This document shows, one piece after another, positions 23,408 through 50,400 of a stretch of DNA of 64,000 nucleotides (positions are counted from its first letter, which is position 1; each line of letters starts with the position of its first letter). This stretch comes from Sialis fuliginosa (taxonomy: Eukaryota; Arthropoda; Insecta; Megaloptera; Sialidae). The translations under genes were made by a program, and so were the position numbers. The notes beneath the pieces were generated by a model that was given only the letters and a program-made list of their open reading frames with translations, made no database searches and was not told the origin of the DNA. Location: NCBI GenBank assembly GCA_961205875.1, contig OY540815.1, positions 21,947,638 through 22,011,637 of the forward strand, read 5' to 3'.

Positions 23408-26400
23408 CTGGAATGGAAAATTCATTTGTGCAAACATAACCTAAATTTCAGTATGCAAAACATACCATTCTCATTTTTGAAAAATTGAGCAGACCATCTT
23501 CAGTAAAGTTAGGCGTCCCTTCCTCGATAAAAGACAAGTCAGTTAAGTACATTCCCAAGTAGGGAATGCACGGAGGGTCACATCGGTGAAGTGCATCACG
23601 TAGAGACCTGAATCTGCCGTCTGATGAAACTATGGCTTGTAGCTTTTCGATAGTTTGCTTCGTCTGAAGAATATTACATAAAATTGAACCACCTTTTTTT
23701 GTTAGAAACTATAACACACCCCAAGCAAACTTTGATGATTTTTTTGTGTATGTACATTGATAAAATAAACATTATATTTTAAATTTCTTTAGTAACCCAC
23801 TTAAAAGTGTACAGTCTCCATATTTACTTAGTTTAATATCGATTGGTTTTCATTTTCTGTTATAAAAATATAAACAAAGTTAAATTTGTCTAGAAATTGA
23901 AATTTTTAAGTGATGGCAACACACTACAGGTCGCAAAACGTAATAAATTAACAGAAATCCTTTTGAATTTTCTTCATCTATTATCAGAATAGAACCCTAT
24001 TAAAACTCAGCCAAATATGATAACTGGAAGTAAGAAAATTTTTAGTTTATCTAAAAAACGATATTTCTGAAAAAATTTTATTGTGAAATATTAGTTAGTC
24101 TAGTTAAAAAAATATCCGCCGAGAAGCGCCACAATAGCTGCAACTGATATATGTATTACTGCAAGGTTAGTAAAGTAATAGGTTGCCTCATGACTCTGGC
24201 GGGGAGTGGCATGAGAGGGAAGAACGCGTCATCGTGAGGAACTCTTTGACATTATAAATGGCTGTCAAACTATATTTACTCTTTATTTTAGTTAAGCTGA
24301 TTTATTGTAAGTTGTTTTTAAATATTTTCATTTGATATTGATAGTGTACTGAGTTTTAAATCTAAATTTTTATTATTATAAATTATAGTTTTAAACAAGT
24401 GTTTTTTTATGTGTAACCAACAAATGTATTTTCTTTAAGCATTGATTTCTGACATCATTTTAAAGTTTTTATGAAGAAATATTATATGTAATAATTTGTA
24501 CTTCTGTAATAAACAATAATATTTACTTTTTTTAAATACAAATATCCAAAAATTCGAAATAATTTGAAAAAAAACTTAATATATGAAACAACGTTTAAAG
24601 GTTCCTCAGGGTGACGTCATCACACGCAGCCGCTGATTGGTCAAAAAGTTATGAGGCAACCTATACATATACTAACCTTGATATTACTGTACATAAGTAT
24701 CTAAATCTACTGTGTTGTATTTTAATTATTTTATTCAAAGGTATGATTTTTTTTGCAAATTACAATGATTGAATTTTTATCTTGAGTTCTGTTTCATGTT
24801 ATGTTTGCATTATAAAATGTGGAGCATATTAATTTATATCAGACATACACAAAGCGATAGTTTTGTTTGTTGAAATTGAATATTTTTAATTCTAAAAAAT
24901 TATAACCGTATTATGTATTATAATAAATATAAGTATTATTTATTATTTGTGGAATACTTTTTTCAGTTTTTGTATTTATTTATTCATTTGTGACAGATCA
25001 ATGTAAGAAAATATATAATTATTAAGTGAGGTTATGTCATTTCTAATCACTATTATTACTAAAATTGATAAAGTTATATATTACTAACCGTTTTTGAGAC
25101 TTTCTCCCAAGTTTTCTTGAGCCGGTACACAGCGCTGTTTGTAAACGCAGCACATATCTGCAGAACTCCGTTGAAGTTATGCAAACACCGTGAAATATCC
25201 GCGACAGCTGCCCACTTCTCGATGGCTGCGATTCGGGCAGACAGCGTGTTGCGTCTGACTATTTCGGACACAATCAGTCGAGATACTTCATTAAACCGAC
25301 GTGTCATTAGAATTATATGCGGTGCTTTGGTGGCTTTATCGTTTTTCATCCACGCTTGACCGAGAAACTCCCTGAAAACGATCAGTATTAGCATTTATAC
25401 CAAGTAAATAAATGAGTCAGTAAATGAGACTTACTCGCTTGCGATAGATACAAATATCTGATGGTCTAAATAAGTCATTTGTTCTGCAATCTCCAACGCA
25501 GAAAGTGTTTCTATACTTTCTTTACTCGGTGTCTAAAAAATAAATATTGTTTTTAAAATCAATACTGATTTAAAATTAAATATAATTTTCGTACCATTGG
25601 TGGTGCTAATAATCTATTCAGATCTATTTTAGAACTTTCTGGATCTTCTTTTGTAATTAATCTCAACAGTTGTGCGGCTGCTTTATGTTCAGCCGGGAGA
25701 AGATTTGGACTGTAAATTATATCATCTAAAAATTCAATTGTTAAATTTTTCAACCGTTGATCCATTTCAAAATCTTGAGCGTGTTTTGAAACCCAATGTC
25801 TGAAATAAATTATTTTTTATATTATAAACTAGAAAACATTAAAAATTAGTTCAAATCGAAAATATTGCCTGTAAAACGACAAATGCCCTAAAATATATAT
25901 ACAGGGTGGGGCATTTAAAGTGTTACAGATTTTTATCTCAGAACCATTATTATATTTTTAAAAAATGTTTAGTTGTGAGGGGGTAATTGAATTGTAATAT
26001 TTATTTATTATTTTAACGTGGCTTTATAGGTTATTTGAAGGTCAATATCATTTTTTTAAATAGGAACCTATAGTTTTTATTTAGTAATCTTACTCTATGT
26101 AAAAAAAACACGAATCTTTTATTGAAAACTTTTTTTTGAACAACCTAAACTTTATAAGATATTTAACAAAATAATTTTGAAATTTTGAACATTCAAGAAT
26201 TTTTTACTTAGAAATTATCAACTTTAGAGAAAAAATACAAAATACAAAAAATGTTTATTTTGGTCTAATGAAACTTGGAGACTTATTCTAGAATTTTTTG
26301 TATTTTTTTTTTGCTAAAATAAAATAAATAGTAAAAAAAATTTAAATAATTCTCCAAGCTTTATTAGACCAAAAAAAACATTTTTTTACCACGTACTTTT

Positions 26401-29400: not shown

Positions 29401-32400
29401 TTGTTAAATAATTTGGTGAGTTTATCACGAGGAAGCACTGTGCATTTACTTGGCAGATGTTTTTTCATTGTTAGGCCAAAGACTTCTCATTCTATCTTGT
29501 TTGACAAAACTAGGGCTTCGAACCGTTATTTTTTTCGTTTCGGTTTTCGTTCCGGTTCGAGTAAAAAAATATATTTCGGTTCGGTTCCGGTTTTCGTTCC
29601 GCAAAAAATAACAGTTTTTCCGGTTCAGTTCCGGTTCGAAGCCTTGGACAAAACTGTCAACTGCACTCATACTTTGTGATAATTTATTTATAATATCAGG
29701 CATTTGTTTAATTGTGAATATTTAGCGAGTTTTATTTATTTTTATTACAAAAATAATCAGTGCTGTTATTTAGTTGAAGAATAAACATCCAATAGGAAAT
29801 AATACAATAATAGCAAACATCCGTGCAAAAAAACATTCAAAAAAACAAATGTTATTCTGGCCTGCAGTATTTAAACTTTATTTTCGATGTTATGAAATAA
29901 TAAAAAAATTTAAGCTAAAATCATGCCAGTGCAAGTGGAAGAGACACAGGTGTTCAAACTATTAGAAAGTGTAAATTAAATGAGAAAAACTAACTTAATA
30001 AGGACATAGAGAAGTGCAGAACTATTATTTATACTTATCCATATATTTTTATATTTGAATTTATTTATGTATTAAGGGGGCAGACCCAGTTAGAATTTTG
30101 AAAAAAAATCATTTTTTTCCAAGTAGAATATTTTAAAAGTATTCTCTGAAAATTTCAGACAAATGTCCTGTCCATAGACAATTCAGTGTAAGTTCCAAAA
30201 TAAATTTTTTATCTGCATGCAAATCGTACTCAAAACTTTAAACGCGTTTTTCTCGAAACCATGTTTTCGAAATCGGTGATCACTGTAACTTGAGAACGGC
30301 TTAGCCGATCGGTTTGAAATTTTTCTCACTTATTCTATACATAATTGTCCTCCGGATGAACGAAGGATTTTTTTTTGGACGAAAATGCGAGTGAAATTTT
30401 AGTCGAATAAAGAACTTTGACTTTCAATATCCGCCATTTTGTGAAAATTCAAAATTTTTCAAATCCCTTCGTTCATCCGGAGCATTATGTCATTAGCTAA
30501 TGATCCCTTTTGTTTTTTTTTATTTCAGATGATCTAGTGACGAGCAGCAGTGATCACGGCAAAACACTTTTTTTTGGACCCCTTCCAAATTTGCTGTATC
30601 CCACTTATTTTTTAATATTTTGCCATAAAAAAATTACAATGTTCTCTGTAAATAGTAAATACATATCTTTCATGTGGAAAAACATTTGTTATTAATTATT
30701 TTAATGCGTGGTCAAAAAAAAATCCCAACTGAGTCTGCCCCCTTAAATCAGTTAAATGTTATAGCCAATTTTTAATAAATCGTTTCATCACATGGAAAAT
30801 TAATTAATTAAACATGATTTGATGTGATAACGATGAGTGTTTCTACTCTAAATTTGGTCAATGTTAGTAAATGACAAGGTTGCCTCATAACTTTTTGACC
30901 AATCAGCGGCTGCGTGGGATGACGTCACCCTGAGGAACCTTTAAACGTTGTTTCATATATTAAGTTTTTTTTCAAATTATTTCGAATTTTTGGATATTTG
31001 TATTTAAAAAAAGTAAATATTATTGTTTATTACCGAAGCACAAAATATTACATATAATATTTCTTCATAAAAACTTTAAAATGATGTCAGAAATCAATGC
31101 TTAAAGAAAATACATTTGTTGGTTACACACATGGTGGAAAGATTACAAGGTGAGCTCGATAAACAAATGACATCTACTATTGTGACGTCACGTGAAGTAC
31201 TTTATGTGTCAGATGGAAAATTCGTGTATTGTTGTTGTGTAGAATTCGCTTTGATATATGGTGAAAAGTAAATAATATAGAATGCCGGGTGTTTATTGTG
31301 CAGTGGAAATTTATAAAACTTCAAGTTATCTTAATAAGAAAAAGGATTCTGAACATATTAAGTTTTTGTTAATTCCCAAAAATAGAGAAGTGCGTGAATT
31401 GTGGTTGAAAGCATGCGGGACTAAAAATATCAATAAGGTACTGTCACCAGTCTTAGATCATACCCTAGTGCTGGATTCTTGTTTAATTAAATGTACTAAA
31501 TTAGAAATGTTTGTTGATATTTGATTACATACTGTCATTATTGAATCATAATCTATAAACACTTGACTGTAAAACAGCTTAATTTGATGACAATCGGCTA
31601 ATTTAAAGTAATTATTAGTGTAATCTATTTATTAATTATTATATTATCATAGCATCTGCTTTACTTGCTATTAAAGCGTCCAAGACTTGTGCCAATACCT
31701 TATAAAGTCAAGCAGAGTTTGCTCGCTGAATTTTACTGACAAAGATTGGCGACTCAAATATATTATTTTGAATAATCCTGTCATCAAGAGGTTACTAAAT
31801 CCAAATGCTTTGCTTTCAATAAAACTTTTAGATTTAGAAAAAGGGTTTTTTAAAATTAATTTAAATAGTTTAAGTTAAGCATACGCTATGATTTCTTAAA
31901 AGTCAATGTAATAACATTAACATACCTGAAAAAGCTAAGCAATCATTTTTTAGATGCAGATTATATTTTAGATTACGTAAATTAAATAAGTAGCTAATGT
32001 ATTATAAATCTCAAAAAAGAAAATTTATTAAAACTATAAAATAAAAACAACACTTGTTCTTTTCATTTATATAAACGATTATCATTTTATTTTTCAGTTT
32101 GCACTGACAATTATGGTTACTTCATTAGTATCTAGTATAGGTTCTTCCTCTGGAGTTTTTATTACAAATTTAGATTCTTCTAAGCGGTTTCTATTACGTC
32201 TTCATTTGCTTCTTTTAAATCTACATCGATTTATAATATTTTAATTAAAACTAGAACATAAAATACCGGTATGGAGAACCATACATGACTTCCATGTTCT
32301 ATAATATCGTTTGAAATAATTTTTAATATATGAAAAATTTAATAGAAATTTGTCAGATATAAAACTCACCTTTGTATTAAAAATATTAGTCCTATAATGC

Positions 32401-35400
32401 CCTAATGTTAAAAATATAATACATATTCGTAGAATAACTAATTTGACACTTTAATTTAGTTGCATTTGTTTCCAAGGCAACATGAATTCTGCAATTTCGA
32501 TGACGTCACAACATTCAAGGTCAGAGCTGTCAATCTTACCTTGTATATTTGTATCATGGGTTACACATAAAAAAAACACTTGTTTAAAACTATAATTTAT
32601 AATAATAAAATAATAAAAATTTAGATTTAAAACTCAGTACACTATCAATATCAAATGAAAATATTTAAAAACAACTTACAATAAATCAGCTTAACTAAAA
32701 TAAAGAGTAAATATAGTTTGACAGCCATTTATAATGTCAAAGAGTTCCTCACGATGACGCAATCTCCCGTCTCATGCCACTCCCCGCACAGAGTTATGAG
32801 GCAACCTTGTACTTTACTAACCTTGAAATTTGGTATTATTTACAGACAATAACCTAACTTACCAAATGGGTTCAGGTCCAATGCTGAGGCCAGAAGAAGA
32901 GCACATTAAACAATCAGACAAACATTTAATATAACATCATCGGACACCAACATCTGAAAGGCTTTTATCATCAAAATCATAGGTACCAGTAGGAGAAACG
33001 TGTTGCTATCCCAAATTTACTTATTTATTATGCTGACGTTCAGTATTATCAAGTTTAACTAAATGCTCCTTTAACTAACTGTCATATTATTACCAGAACC
33101 AAGTATAATATATTTAATCAAATGGGTTTTTAATTTTCTACACTATGTTTTTACAACGCATATTGTGTACATTTTTCAATGAGAGCCTTAATATTGATTT
33201 AAATCACGTTTGTAATATACAAAATTTAAGTTAAAGGAGCATTTAGCGCTAAAGGAGCTTTAAATTGGTTGATAATACCGGGCATTAAATTATGAAACGT
33301 TAATGCTGGAAATAATAAATAAATAAACTTTTCAGCTACAGTGGGTGTATTCCGTATAGAATTTTTTTCGTCAAATAAGGTTGGTAGAAGCGCGCGCACG
33401 ATTTTTTACTTTTGTGAGAGAAACGTCAAAGATACATGTAAAAAGTTTTTATTTTAATTGAAGTAAATTTAATGGATTAAATAATTTTAAAAATTAATTA
33501 TAGAAATGAAATGTTTACTTTTATAGACATCAAACAAAATGATATTTTCTTTTTCCATTCTGTCATTAGATCTATGATAATTAGGGTGACAATATAAAAA
33601 AAGACCATCAAAAATAGCAGGGGACACAAATATGAAGATTAGGTTATTTAGGTGTCGACGAAAATAAAATAATCTTTTTCATCTCAGGATTTACAATAAC
33701 TAAAATCTGGTCATCCTAATGATAACGTATAACAATTACAACAATCACTTTTTCTTATTTGAATGTAACAGCTGATGTGGAACACAAATGTAAAAAATCG
33801 TGCGCGCGCTTCTACCAACCTTATTTGACAAAAAAAATCCTATACGGAACACACCCTATCTCGATTTGAAAAATTACAGCACAACAATTACAGTTACAGG
33901 AGGTGGTCACTAATATCTGGAAAAAATATGTTTAATAGCAAGCTATTTAAAATAATATAAAAGTGATCTAAAAGAGCCTCATAATCTTCATAATTTAACA
34001 TAAAATAAATTGTAATTAATTTTTGTATAATACACCCCCTAAAAACAGTCATTTCTGTCACAGTAGCATTTAATATTAACTTACACGTTCAATTATAAAA
34101 CTATAATACCTCTACGTCTTATTTTCTTGTATTTTAGTCGATATTTGTATGACGAGTTGAAGTTCACTGTAGGAAATTTCACTAAAAAATTTTGTGTTTT
34201 GGATTTCGTTAAAAGTATGTTTATTGTATTGAAAATGACGTGAAAAGTTGTTTGTTTCAAACCGCAGGTCTGTATCTCAAACCGTTCTCGAGATATAGCC
34301 TCTCAAAGTTTTAGTTTTTTCAATTTTTTGGAGAAAAAAGGCCATAACTTTTGAACGCGTGGTCGGAATTGATTTTAGTTGACGGATTTGGAATCAGCAT
34401 GTCAAAATCTATATAATGACATGTATAATACCTTAAAACTCGAAAGAAAAAAAATTCGCGAAAAATCGAAAAAATTCAAAGGGGTATATCTTAAAAAAAT
34501 GTCGATTTTTGACCAAAAATTTTTTGTCAGATTTTAAAGTATTATACATGTCAATATATAGATTTTGACACGCTGATTTCAAATCCGTCAACTAAAATCA
34601 ATTCCGACCACACGTTCAAAAGTTATGGCCTTTTTTCTCCAAAAATTTGAAAAAACTAAAACTTTGAGAGGCTATATCTCGAGAACGGCTTGAGATACAG
34701 ACCTGAGGTTTGAAACAAACAACTTTTCACGTCATTTTCTATATAATAAACATACTTTTAACGAAATCAAAAATTCTAAATTTTTTAGTGAAATTTCCTT
34801 CAACTCGTCATACTAATATCGACTAAAATACAAGAAAATAAGACGTAGAATCATTTAGTTACTATATAAATATATAAGGATTTTTTTTAAAGTAAAAGCT
34901 TGAACTTAAGGTGTTTCATAACTAGTTTTTTTGTTAATAGGAGGGAGAGGATTGACAAAATATGCTTCCCTTATTAAAAATTTCACGCTTCACTAATTAT
35001 TTTTTGCAAAATGGGACACTTTTTTAAATGTCAGATTTTTAAAATATTTTTCAACTGTAAAGAAAAAAATTTATATATATTTTAAAACCCAATTTTTTGT
35101 GTTTTTGTTTTTGAAATTCTTTCTAAAATAAAAAAAATTGCTCATTCAAGAAAAATTGTTTTCTTGACTTTTCCAGATATGTGGCCACCCTGAATTACAT
35201 ACAATAGAATATCGTTTGTACAAAAGAGCACATTAAAATAAACCCAATTTGCTAATTAACAAAAAAAAAACTACATTTGTTCCTTTTAGAAAAACTTATA
35301 AACAATTTTCTACTGTAAGTACATATTAATATTTCTATCTATAGTCTATTTATAATTGTTATGCTAGAGAAAGAGCTATTAATATTCTTTTATAAATTAT

Positions 35401-38400
35401 ATAAAACGTCCTACCAATATCTGTACAAAAAGGAGGACACTGTAAAAGCATTGCATGCTGAATTTATTCGGGGTAAAACATTTAATTTTGTTTCAACAAC
35501 AAACGAAAAGTTTAGTGTGTGGATACTACAGAACAAATCAATCTACCTTCTCTGCGACTGTCTGAACGAGGTGATCACTACACCTGCTTTGCTCGAGTTC
35601 TGCGGCGAGTCGTGTTGAAAGCTAGGTCTCGAAGATGCATTCGTCGAGTCATCCTGCATAGATCTGCGTCCACCGTAGTAATTCTGTATTATCAGAGTAA
35701 ACGAGATTAGTTAGTTGAACGTCAACGCTGTTTATGTATTTTGTACAAACCTGAATAACAGCACTGGTCGTGTTCATAGAGATCGAAGCAGATCTAGTTG
35801 AACTGCAAGATGGACGGTGAGAGGTATCGTGCATTGCTCCGTCTTCATCTAAAATATAATATATATGTAAATTATTAAACTGCTCCCATAATAAATTATA
35901 TTTTATTATGAAAAGGTTCAGAGAGAATTTAATGAGATGGCCACTTGTTTTTTTGTACTTTTAGGTTGGTAACAGTGCTGTTTGTTAGGGTGGCCACTTT
36001 TTATCTAGAATAAATTTCCCTTTCTTTTTCAAAACTCTGTAACTATTATATAAGAGTATAATATGAGATGGCCACTCGCTTTTTGTACTCTTAGGTTGGT
36101 AATAGTGCTGTGTTTGTTAAAGTGGCCACTTTTTTCTGGAATATATTTCCCTTTCTTTTTAAAAACTTTGTAACTATTATAAAAATGTTCATATAGAGTT
36201 TAATATGAGATGGCCACTTGCTTTTTGTACTGGTAATAATACTGTGGATGTCAGGGTGGCCATTTTTACTCTGTGATAAATAAATCTTTCTTTTTCAAAA
36301 CTCTATTATAAAAATGTTGAGATAGAGTATAATATGAGATGGCCACTCACTTTTTGTATTGTTAGGTTGGTAACAGTGCTGTGTTTGTCAGGGTGGTCAC
36401 TTTTTCCCTGGAATTTAATTAATTTAAAGCACAACCCATGATTTACATACCATCATTTCTGCTTTTATTCCCATCGGACACCCTCCTCTTGCTTATACTC
36501 CTTCGTTCGGGCACTTTGAGTGGGGACTTAACATCCTTGAGTACGATTTTCTCAATTACAGGCGGGCTGACCGGTTTTTCATAGAGGAAATGCACCTCAG
36601 GCTGGCTGTCGACAGCAGAGGACTGGGGCTCGGTCGTCTCTCGTGCTGCCTCGCGGCCCTCGGGTGACTTTCCTCCCATGTCCGTTGGGTCAGACCCTGA
36701 ACTCGTCGAGCCGACTAACGTCACAGAACTCAAGTTGCTCGGGGAGCAAGGAGCACTGATCACAGTGTTATCTGTAATGGGGAACAAAGAAGCTGAAACA
36801 TACACTATTTCTTGTATATATACACATACCTGTTAAAGTTTCGCTACTGCTGGACGCAGCAATGACTTTAGGGATAGCCAAATGACACCCATCCTCATCT
36901 TGTGTACCTTCAACACGTATAGAAACACTCTTGCGTGGAGTACCCTCACCAGAGGAGTCTGACGCACCGCCACTGCTTGCAGCGCCGTCAGATGGAGGCG
37001 TCTGTTTCACTATCACGGGGTTTGGACCTTCCGTTATTAGTGTCAGCTCTCGGGTGTCCTCCTCGACTGAAACGTTATGGACTAAATTTACAAATATGCC
37101 AGCATCTGTGTGACGTACAAACCACATTATAATAAATTTGATCTGTACGTCGTGCATTTGGTGATGATCACATATCTAGTATAGATACGTGATTGTTTAT
37201 AGTTTTTCCAAATAGAACAAGTCTTTTTTCTCTATGTTTTTATTTTTGAATAATAAATTCTCTAATAAAATATAATTTTCAGGCTTCTAAAGATCAAGTA
37301 TCTTACATTTACGGAAGCTAGTTCTCCAATTCCTGTGTCCTTGGGAGTCGTAACTATGGCTCCGGTCTCTGTCACTCATCTCAGACCCGTAGCCGGAGAC
37401 AGAACTTGCTCCGCTCGTACGTCGTGGTGAAAAACTACTCCTCCTGTAAAACGCATGAATCTCTACATATCTACGTCAACTTACAATATAACTCATCGTA
37501 CCTCCGATCATCGTAAAGTTGTAAAGTATTATCATCCCGATTTGCTAAAGCATCTAATGACACCATTGACCCTTGCATCGGCTCAGGTTCCAGATTATAA
37601 AATACTTTCTTCAAAGCTTCCAGCACGGTCACACCATCAGTAAATACACGATAAGTCAGTAAAAACGTATTCAGAAAATCAATCGAAAGAAAACGAAGAT
37701 CTGTAAAGTAACAACCAATCATTTATATACATATAATAACATGTCCTGACTCTATAAGAAACTTATGAGGAAAAAATTGGTATAAAAGTTTGTAAGGAAA
37801 ATTTGTAATTCATTTGAGTGAAACCACGGGTTTCAACTAGTATAAAATATTAACTTTTTCTTATAATCATTTTCTAACTAACCTGTCAATCTTTGCAGTA
37901 GTCTTTCGGGTGTTGCATATCTGATCTGTGGAACTTTACAAGAATTTAAAGTCCTACTAAACCTGATATCAACATCATCTTTAAACAGTTTCGGATCGTT
38001 TTTAATAGACTGCGGCATCGTGACAGAGCTCGTGTCAGACATAGATGAATGTAACAAATCGTTGAAGTGTACATTGTCCATACACTGGCTGATATCAGAT
38101 ATCCATGCGGCTTTCTCTTGTATTGTTGGAGCTACCAAATGTACAGCGACCTGTGCAGTGAAGAATGTTGTATAGAATAATATAACTAACAATACCCTTT
38201 TATTATCATACCTGTGATCCGGTCTTCATGTCGACGATTATTTTAAAATCTCGATTATGTAGATGACAGCTACCGCTTGATGTTTCGCTGATCCCTGAAG
38301 ATTGGCTTGACATTGAACACACTGACGATTCTAAATAATCAAAGTATTTATTTTGTAGTAAATTATATTCTGTCAGACCATAATTTTTTTTTAAAATAAA

Positions 38401-47400: not shown

Positions 47401-50400
47401 AAAAAATTTAAAGATTAAAAAAAAGTTTAGTCAAAAATTACAGCCTGTACAGTGATTTGAACCAAAAAAGTCACTTATGCTTCATTGTATGCCGCCCCAC
47501 CTAGCCTGGCGCCCTGGTCCCCCCCCCTAAAGCCGGCGCTGTCTGTAGATAGCGTTTACTTAAGAACAGAGCAAATATTTGTATGCATCTGAAATTACAT
47601 CGATTTCCTTATATATAACGTATATATAAAGAAGGAGTCAAATAGCAGAAAATATATTTTCATAAAATTAATATTTAATTGTATATAATATGTATGTATT
47701 TTATTATAAGGTGCAGTGGGGTAAGTGCAGACCGGTTTTTGCATAGTTTGACTTTGAACCCATATATTTTCAATCTGTTATATAAATACTTAATATTTTC
47801 AGTATCAAATGATTGTGCAGTTATTACTGACTAGTTTAAATTGAATAGGACGCCAAATTTCTTTGTATATTTGCATTATGATAGAAATTGTAAAAAATGT
47901 CAACTACAGTGCACTTGCCCCATTTTCGGGGCAAGTGCATTACCGGTAGTTAAAAACGCTTTGAAGCATTATTTCATATGCTATGGGGCAAGAGCAGAAT
48001 TGTGAATACGCCTAGTATAAAATGCTTTTTACCGCATCAAGATACGTTGTTTAGTTTTGGAGTAATGAACTTTTTAAACAAGTTGGTATTAACTTTTAGT
48101 TGTTCACTACAATTTCACTCGTATTATAATAAAAAGAACCCGTTAATGCACTTGCCCCGTTTCTGCATTTACCCCACTGCACCATATATGATATTATTTA
48201 ATATTCTTGTTCATTTCCGCAAAATAGCATACATATTTGATTAATTAACGAGAATATGTTCCTGAGATACTCTACCAATTAATTTAGTAATGTAGGTATA
48301 GAATATAATCAAAGTGACATGCATATGTATGTATGTATGTCGTTGCCATGAACACATGTTTATAATTTATCGAAATCAAATCACCAGAAAACCGCACTGT
48401 TTCCAGTTGATTGAATAGCTAATGCTAATAGGAATATTCAATCAGGTCCAGAATTGCATAAAAATCAGATTTGTTAAATCTAAATAAGGTACTGGCACCA
48501 GTTATGGCCTTTATAAAAGCTGTTTTTTGTAATTCTCATGAACTTATGTTACTAATAAAACAAGTAATCAATTTAATTACCAAAGTCCGCAAATATAGTT
48601 TTTTTTTTAAATTAAATTTTTGTGACCAAAAAAAAATAAAAAAATAGATTTTTTTTTGCAATTTTGAAAGTAACCACGAGGATGTTTAATTTTTTTTCCA
48701 AAATTTCAAGGTAACCATTTTGTAGGAAATTTTGTCAGCTTTAAAACAGTTTTTTCAAATTTGTTTTATAATTTTTTAGTGTCGCGATATTCGAGTTTGA
48801 AGTACTAAAAAGGTTTAAACGACCATAAAGGGTCTAATTTTGATCACACAGAAAAAAAAGAATATTAAAGCTTAATAGTCTAGTAGCATTTAAAAAATGT
48901 TTAATTTTAACTTAACCCTTCAAATACGAAAAACAAAACAATGTTCGAATTTAAATAATCCTGTAAAAATAACCTTTTTTTAATCATATATTATCTAATG
49001 TTTAAAATGTATCCAGAAATTAAGTTCTATCAAAGAATACGAAAACTGACTTATTACCTTCTATGTGAACAAAGGTTTCAGTAAAAATCTTTTAATTTGG
49101 CTGAGAAATTGCATTTTGAATTTTTTGTGTACGTTTAGGACTTGACCGTACTTTTTATAACAAGTTTTTTTTGGGATTTAAAAAATTGTAAGAAGGAAAT
49201 AGTTTTTTTCATAATTTTTTGTTCAGATGTTTTAATTTAAAAATAACCATCACTGGGGTCATATCATATCCAAGACTGGTGCCAGTACCTTATCCCTAAA
49301 AATAAAATCAGTAATTTTCAAAAATAAAGATTATACTGTATGGCAATATTTATTATAAACCTTGTCAGGTACAAAAAACGGCCCTGAAGCTATATCTATG
49401 TGTCTAACTCGAATCTACCAATACAGCTATTGAACGTATCGGGCACTCTCTCACCGAGCACTAGAGTCGGCCACGACTCCATGCGAGACGTTAGGCCTTT
49501 GAGGAAGATCTGGTGCAGGAACAATACCGTCTCGCTGTTCAAGAAGATGGAGTTGACGTCCTCGTGCGAGCAAGGGGGTTTCTTCGACGAAGCAGCCATC
49601 TTGAACGGACGAAGGAAACATGATACAAGGACCTCCATTTGTTCCATGTATTCCTCCTCGGCTTCGACCATTCGGAACACTAGGCTGAAATTTAAACATG
49701 GATAACTAACCTACACTGAAAAAAATATCGTTCATTACAAAAAATAACCTCAAAAAATATTTTTTTTATAAAATTCAATAAATATGTAATTTTTATTTTT
49801 GATGTATCACAGTTGTTAAATTAAACAAGGCATATCGACAAATTGGGGGGGGGGGGTAACCCCTAACCCCCCTTGTAAATTTTATTTTATTTTGTAAATT
49901 TTATTCATCAATGTTTTGGCTTCTGAACTACGTCTGGTCCGGTTTGAGATACAGATATTATAAGAGCTGATTATTTGGGTCATTGTGAGTAAAAAATTGT
50001 ACGGGAAGATGGGGTCTATCTTCAACCCCCTCTGAGCTAAAGGATGTTTAAAAACTTCCTTCAGAGTAGTACTTACAAAAACAAAGATTATCTCGTAACT
50101 TTTAAAGTAACGTAACTAGAGCAACCACAATGAATCAGTTTCATAGATAAATAACTAACGTATTTTTCAGTATTAACGTTATTGCTACCGTGTTTCCAGC
50201 TCAGAATTATTGCTCATCAAAGTCAAAAAATATATATTTTTTAATTTTTATGAAAATGACATTTTTCCCCAAAAGTACCTATAATATATGGTATTTTTTA
50301 TCATTATTTTGGTGTGTCATAATGTTACCTACAAATTCACTATACCAAGTTTGGACCTAAGTCTTACAGTTTTCCAGTTATAAATTTATCTAAATAATCC

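Follow-up and report, generated by a model that had tools for sequence, protein, structure and literature searches.

A core-deleted P-superfamily element with nine-base target duplications, nested in a miniature inverted-repeat transposable element in a RasGEF gene intron of Sialis fuliginosa

The window analysed here is a 64,000-base stretch of the Sialis fuliginosa genome (G000:C7:21947638-22011637), and its positions 30859 to 32826 raise the question of whether the transposon found there is one P element or several elements inserted into each other. An interpretation made earlier from the letters alone (the sequence-only reading) took this interval for a single P-like transposon in a RasGRF intron, with an 8-bp target duplication, a THAP relic and no catalytic core. 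Using own-genome searches that covered the 392-Mb genome, we find instead that 30859-32825 consists of three nested transposons: an outer miniature inverted-repeat transposable element (MITE), the end of which lies at 32825, an inner P-type element, and a TA-flanked repeat (Table 1). That the locus as a whole is a MITE invaded by a core-deleted P-superfamily element, both with 9-bp duplications, is the reading we hold with high confidence.

The nesting is apparent from copies elsewhere in the genome. When the genome was searched with a 1968-base query, 40 of 5370 first-look candidates were scored and gave 71 matches. Query positions 272-1700, in full or in large part, recur at dozens of places without the flanks, mostly at 96-100% identity, and the flanks (1-271 and 1701-1967) are joined without interruption at C1:12446308-12446834. 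The unoccupied GGTTACACA site is found once and exact in a second outer copy in the window (24162-24680), and with one mismatch in locus L013. Because outer copies hold GGTTACACA once at the same place, the outer element was inserted first and the inner element second. The intron position given by the sequence-only reading is correct: the nested element is bracketed by minus-strand matches to RasGEF (23469-23663 and 25086-25493) and to RasGEF_N (37570-37710) and therefore lies in an intron, and the THAP frame is antisense to this RasGEF_N+RasGEF gene. Pfam searches with ten window frames gave no match at E 0.01.

To determine the target duplication of the inner family, we surveyed 38 loci (L001-L028 and L049-L058), which contain 37 different copies whose left end is recognisable; the copy of L004 appears again in L022, and L025 is a sub-stretch of L056 without a left end. 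The family ends are CATGGTGG.../...TATCATG, and 30 copies have both ends, the other seven being without the exact right-end pattern. In the whole genome the left end occurs at 51 sites with at most three mismatches (43 exact, five with one and three with three), and the reversed pattern, used as a control, at 0 sites. An exact 9-bp direct repeat abuts both ends in all 30 two-ended copies; none fits at 8 or 10 bp, and one also fits a 4-bp repeat. The first base of the 9-mer is A in 11 copies, C in 4, G in 12 and T in 3, and the last base is A in 4, C in 11, G in 5 and T in 10 (n = 30). The target motif is symmetric about the fifth base at one position pair, the second base outside the left border being T in 24/30 and its mirror position A in 20/30. 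Element lengths fall at 1428-1432 bp in 10 and at 1700-1712 bp in 9 of the two-ended copies, and the 1429-bp copies are about 99% alike.

A relative that retains the missing part was found by searching the genome for the inner left end. This 4935-bp element (L049:1152-6086), headed by the left end at C3:35975151, has nearly the same ends as the inner element, the left end differing at one of 22 bases and the right end being the same, and it is flanked by the duplication GGTATCTAT. Its frames match the Pfam domains THAP (5e-11), TNP-like_RNaseH_N (5.1e-18), GBD (9.3e-14) and RNaseH_C (3.9e-11), and they match the Drosophila P transposase 6p5a in two RNase H pieces (E 3e-47 and 5.6e-25) and in the GTP-binding part (2.4e-26). 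At the positions aligned to D230, D303 and E531, the catalytic residues of the Drosophila enzyme (PMC8230255; here and below, published work is cited from those parts of the sources that were available), L049 has D, D and E. Thus, the THAP domain, the D-D-E RNase H-like domain and the GTP-binding insertion that define the superfamily are all present in L049.

The alignment of the inner element to L049 covers its two ends and its THAP region, with the main blocks at 84-93% identity, and skips about L049:1559-4612. Since the skipped part is the catalytic one, the inner element derives from a P-superfamily transposon by deletion of the core, and the core loss proposed from sequence alone is borne out for the window copy. 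The plus-strand THAP-like frame is likewise real and belongs to the inner element, starting at 31282; on the frame of its first half, Pfam THAP scores E 0.0023 and 19.1 bits, under the cut-off of 23.9. Its zinc ligands are lost as described, with Tyr where L049 has Cys and, in SRVCSLNF, Asn where L049 has His. Membership of the P superfamily is thus supported by sequence comparison for the inner THAP-bearing element, not for the interval as a whole; the earlier guess of a P-superfamily relic was right for this element, but for partly wrong reasons.

The inner family departs from canonical P elements in several respects. Its duplication is not the canonical 8 bp, although this does not exclude it from the superfamily, of which Galileo, with 7 bp, is also a member. 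Its two ends are alike at 13 of 25-26 positions (shuffle p 0.026), and do not form the terminal inverted repeats of about 27-31 bp that are near-perfect in most canonical elements. The ends read CATGG and CATGA and so deviate from the consensus YARNG quoted in PMC2820524, which again is no bar, since the Drosophila P end itself reads CATGA.

Table 1. Coordinates of the nested elements and their parts in the window
Feature	Position	Strand	Remark
Left target duplication AAATTTGGT, outer MITE	30850..30858		9 bp
Outer MITE, left part (CAATGTTAGTAAATGACAAGGTTG...)	30859..31129	+	last 9 bases are one GGTTACACA copy
Left target duplication GGTTACACA, inner P-type element	31121..31129		9 bp
Inner element, non-autonomous P-superfamily derivative	31130..32558	+	1429 bp
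Inner element, left end CATGGTGGAAAGATTACAAGGT	31130..31151	+	
Subterminal TGACGTCA, inner element	31183..31190		candidate protein site; position 54 from left end
Decayed THAP frame, first half	31282..31433	+	Tyr for zinc Cys
TA flank of third-level repeat, left	31434..31435		putative TA duplication
Third-level repeat, TA-flanked, inside THAP frame	31436..31700		265 bp; inverted ends AGGTACTGTCACCAGTCTT..
TA flank of third-level repeat, right	31701..31702		
Decayed THAP frame, second half	31703..31878	+	SRVCSLNF, Asn for His
Junction where catalytic region is missing (about L049:1559-4612)	31822..31823		alignment to L049
Subterminal TGACGTCA, inner element	32501..32508		candidate protein site; position 51 from right end
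Inner element, right end, inward CATGATACAAATATACAAGGT	32538..32558	-	cf. Drosophila P CATGATGAAATAACATAAGG
Right target duplication GGTTACACA, inner P-type element	32559..32567		9 bp
Outer MITE, right part (...CTAACCTTG)	32559..32825	+	first 9 bases are second GGTTACACA copy
Right target duplication AAATTTGGT, outer MITE	32826..32834		9 bp
Second outer MITE copy, uninterrupted, same gene	24162..24680	-	unoccupied GGTTACACA site

The third-level repeat that splits the THAP frame has TA outside both of its ends, which are inverted (84%, 25 nt). The THAP region of L049 is free of this repeat. The left end of the repeat is present in 28/30 two-ended inner copies, the other two being L049 and the 493-bp L057, which is without this region; the repeat was thus inserted before most of the inner family spread. 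Between markers, it measures 262-263 bp in 11 copies, 541-557 bp in another 11 and 1478 bp in one; the form in other copies exceeds the window's repeat by about 278 bp. Similar ends recur, mostly with TAA before GG, for example at 48488 and 49289 in the window. The stretch of about 800 bp between these two positions (48488-49289) is bounded by the inverted ends GGTACTGGCACCAGT of the same family of TA-flanked repeats.

The origin of the outer MITE is a separate question. It is a high-copy element of about 529 bp with CAAGGTTAGTA ends; when 40 of 699 first-look candidates were scored, 40 places, one of them the window copy, matched over nearly the full length, and one further place over 507 bases. 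The second copy in the window is 95% identical. Among ten copies sampled from the 40 places, nine have exact 9-bp repeats and one has no match; the duplication agrees at 9/9 bases in the window copy and in L013 and at 8/9 in the 24162 copy, and its length equals that of the inner P-type family. A P-type origin is probable in our view, although an unrelated element, for example from another 9-bp superfamily, that is P-like only at its ends is a minority possibility that we take seriously. In favour of the unrelated element, the outer and inner ends are modestly similar (14-15 of 25-26 positions; four uncorrected comparisons, shuffle p 0.002-0.008), and no transposase-bearing element with outer ends was found among the loci examined, the whole genome not having been searched for one. 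Against it, the outer ends CAATG and CAAGG fit the superfamily consensus YARNG, unlike the inner CATGG (PMC2820524), and both outer ends share with the inner left end a CA start and ACAAGGT at position 16. In addition, TGACGTCA occurs at position 62 on the outer left, the right having only CGTCA, and the duplication length is the same.

A third MITE family, with CAAGGTATATAAAGACAAGGT ends, was observed at L013:180-358 on the minus strand, C3:19268422-19268945 and C3:6515322-6515845. Searching with a 179-base query (40 of 1939 candidates scored) gave 36 places that are 100% identical over the query, some of them being the two ends of one copy, and the family has the look of a very recent burst. 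It has ACAAGGT at position 15 and TGACGTCA at 64; compared with the inner right end, its end in L013 gives p 0.001, and with the inner left end 0.20. In the same locus (L013:345-2345; C1:12444500-12447200), a member of the CAAGGTATATA family, an inner-family copy and an outer-family copy follow one another directly at a single 9-bp target, GGCTGAAAC, where new copies seem to have landed exactly on the duplication of an older copy.

Several observations weigh against the favoured reading of the inner family. The frames of L049 abut in the 6p5a alignment at about 2685 and about 3045, yet they are in different reading frames; these two frame changes leave no room for introns in the alignment, and, if no intron spans it, a stop stands just ahead of the RNase H frame. 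A whole-genome protein search with the RNase H piece revealed no other transposase of the same family, the next best being 39% identical. Since L049 is broken and the next best is this distant, no intact source was found for copies that are about 99% identical, and the link between the 9-bp spacing and a particular enzyme is indirect. The source enzyme of these copies may have been lost, be absent from the assembly, or be one of the other P-type enzymes of the genome, in which 87 candidates gave 68 PF21787 matches; one scan of viral_contigs found no relative. Furthermore, the palindrome test of the target is weak (114/300 mirrored pairs, against 105.8 +/- 7.0 in shuffled columns and 89.9 from composition). 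The count of 9-bp duplications covers the 30 two-ended copies in the 38 loci.

With these points in mind, it could be supposed that the inner family was moved by a non-P transposase, such as a Mutator-like one, and merely captured P coding sequence, which we consider very unlikely. Duplications of 9 bp are indeed typical of Mutator-like elements (PMC2774946, PMC3164196, PMC3169594), and no intact P transposase with inner ends was found in the genome. However, the inner ends resemble those of Drosophila P (CATGAT...AAGG), the 4.9-kb relative encodes the P domains in the order typical of P, and the window copy derives from that relative by a simple loss of the core. That the 8 bp reported for P elements also holds here, with a fixed extra base at one end mimicking a ninth, is scarcely credible: both edge bases of the 9-mer vary, so that no fixed base belongs to the element, and at the unoccupied site the complete 9-mer occurs once.

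We give practically no credence to one P-type element at 30859-32826 with the 8-bp duplication AATTTGGT, a candidate that the unoccupied outer copies refute, since the interior occurs elsewhere without the flanks and, in the copies examined, with 9-bp duplications of its own, the flanks are joined elsewhere without the interior, and the duplication is 9 bp. What had suggested it was correctly observed in part. AATTTGGT does stand on both sides (30851-30858 and 32827-32834), but the true repeat is the 9-bp AAATTTGGT; the matched ends are indeed inverted repeats (40 nt, 88% complementary), but they are owned by the outer MITE, not by the THAP-bearing element. The argument from an 8-bp duplication plus THAP to a P element thus merged features of two separate elements, and the duplication is 9 bp in both, unlike the 8 bp cited as a P hallmark.

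Under the favoured reading of a MITE and a core-deleted P-superfamily element nested in it, the locus arose as follows. A 529-bp MITE entered the intron of the RasGEF_N+RasGEF gene, duplicating AAATTTGGT, and a 1429-bp non-autonomous member of the P superfamily later entered the MITE, duplicating GGTTACACA. The latter is an internal-deletion derivative of a P-type transposon of about 4.9 kb that kept both ends and a THAP fragment, already split by the older TA-flanked repeat, and lost the RNase H and GTP-binding region. Unable to encode its own movement, it would have been moved in trans by a P-type transposase, the THAP domain of which may bind subterminal sites such as the candidate TGACGTCA, as in the Drosophila P element. 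By the same analogy, the D-D-E RNase H-like domain with its GTP-binding insertion would cut and join the ends, the two joinings would occur nine base pairs apart, and repair would then leave the 9-bp duplications. The nesting, the 9-bp duplications, the unoccupied site, the P-type coding capacity of L049 and the missing core are direct observations, whereas we infer the movement in trans, the binding sites and the role of a P-type transposase in setting the nine-base spacing.

The genome contains further P-type loci. An automatic search for ends and duplications at ten other P-transposase loci and at L049 gave 39 candidate pairs, compared with 24 in one shuffle per locus, and none was convincing: the pairs are mostly AT-rich, and the sole 14-of-14 pair links one arm of an inverted duplication in L064 to the other. 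This search also missed the imperfect ends of L049 itself. Closest to the L049 transposase, at 35-39% identity, are open frames of 569, 945 and 570 aa in L066, L067 and L068 (C11:19693537, C5:22933699 and C2:27092411). For these three loci, the automatic search gave 13 pairs versus 0 in their shuffles, and a looser search around them, run with no control, gave nine pairs, none with matching ends; there are no convincing ends or duplications, and the loci are possibly domesticated P genes or trans sources. Another open frame, of 907 aa with a P-type RNase H domain, is present in seven copies (L059, L060 and five more) that are 99-100% identical over at least 7 kb; the ends of this family were not found. 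All seven copies match the whole 7001-base query, as all four near-identical copies of a 545-aa P family match a whole 6420-base query, and the family boundaries therefore cannot be fixed by this search. The genome also has P families of 860 aa and 853 aa. Upstream of another P transposase frame, L062:1060-1834 is a repeat of about 775 bp that occurs in more than 30 places, mostly at 95-100% identity. Finally, P transposase fragments, many with stops, are clustered at C14:3.9-5.3 Mb, C1:43.5-44.0 Mb, C4:34.7-35.2 Mb and C13:0.2-0.3 Mb.

What makes the inner family interesting is that the copies examined uniformly have 9-bp duplications. Target-duplication length serves as a superfamily fingerprint for transposons (PMC4079207), and 8 bp passes for a hallmark of P elements. 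The 9-bp families described in the sources cited here are Mutator-like (PMC3164196, PMC3169594), and Tetris, with 8-10 bp and no transposase known, was filed as Mutator partly on this length (PMC4079207). A P-type family fixed at 9 bp means that the length rule can mis-sort P relatives and MITEs. In the literature searched, which did not cover Repbase and had most subscription papers outside its scope, no case of a P element with 9 bp was found. We lean slightly towards a broader proposal: in this animal, the elements of a whole P-superfamily branch, several families of high-copy MITEs with CA-N12/13-ACAAGGT ends among them, would have their ends joined at a distance of nine instead of eight base pairs, and the strand-transfer spacing of P-type transposases would be evolutionarily adjustable (7, 8 or 9 bp) with the domain plan and catalytic residues unchanged.

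Among known systems, short non-autonomous relatives that share ends with full-length elements are also seen in the P subfamilies and P-MITEs of Anopheles gambiae, the duplications of which, unlike those described here, are 8 bp (PMC1562414); 8 bp is also the length in the P elements of rust fungi (PMC3164196). Izanagi, in the dmrt1bY promoter of medaka, is likewise a non-autonomous P-type repeat with a THAP remnant and no transposase, interrupted by another repeat, but with 8-bp duplications (PMC2820524). Zebrafish Pdre2/THAP9 similarly has internally deleted copies with intact ends and duplications, and differs in its 8-bp duplication and CATACCTG ends (PMC10983969, PMC7776569). Galileo is an accepted member of the superfamily with a duplication other than 8 bp, as in the inner family; its length, however, is 7 bp (8 bp in three copies), and its inverted repeats are long and repetitive (PMC4168063). 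The Drosophila P element (DmTNP, PDB 6p5a/6pe2) has the same THAP domain, D-D-E RNase H-like domain and GTP-binding insertion, and its end, CATGATGAAATAACATAAGG, also starts with CATG and has AAGG at about the same distance (PMC9682801), whereas it makes 8-bp duplications and has 31-bp perfect inverted repeats (PMC7776569), compared with 9 bp and short imperfect ends in the inner family. The 9-bp family is a natural comparison with the solved Drosophila P strand-transfer complex for the question of what sets the distance between the two joinings.

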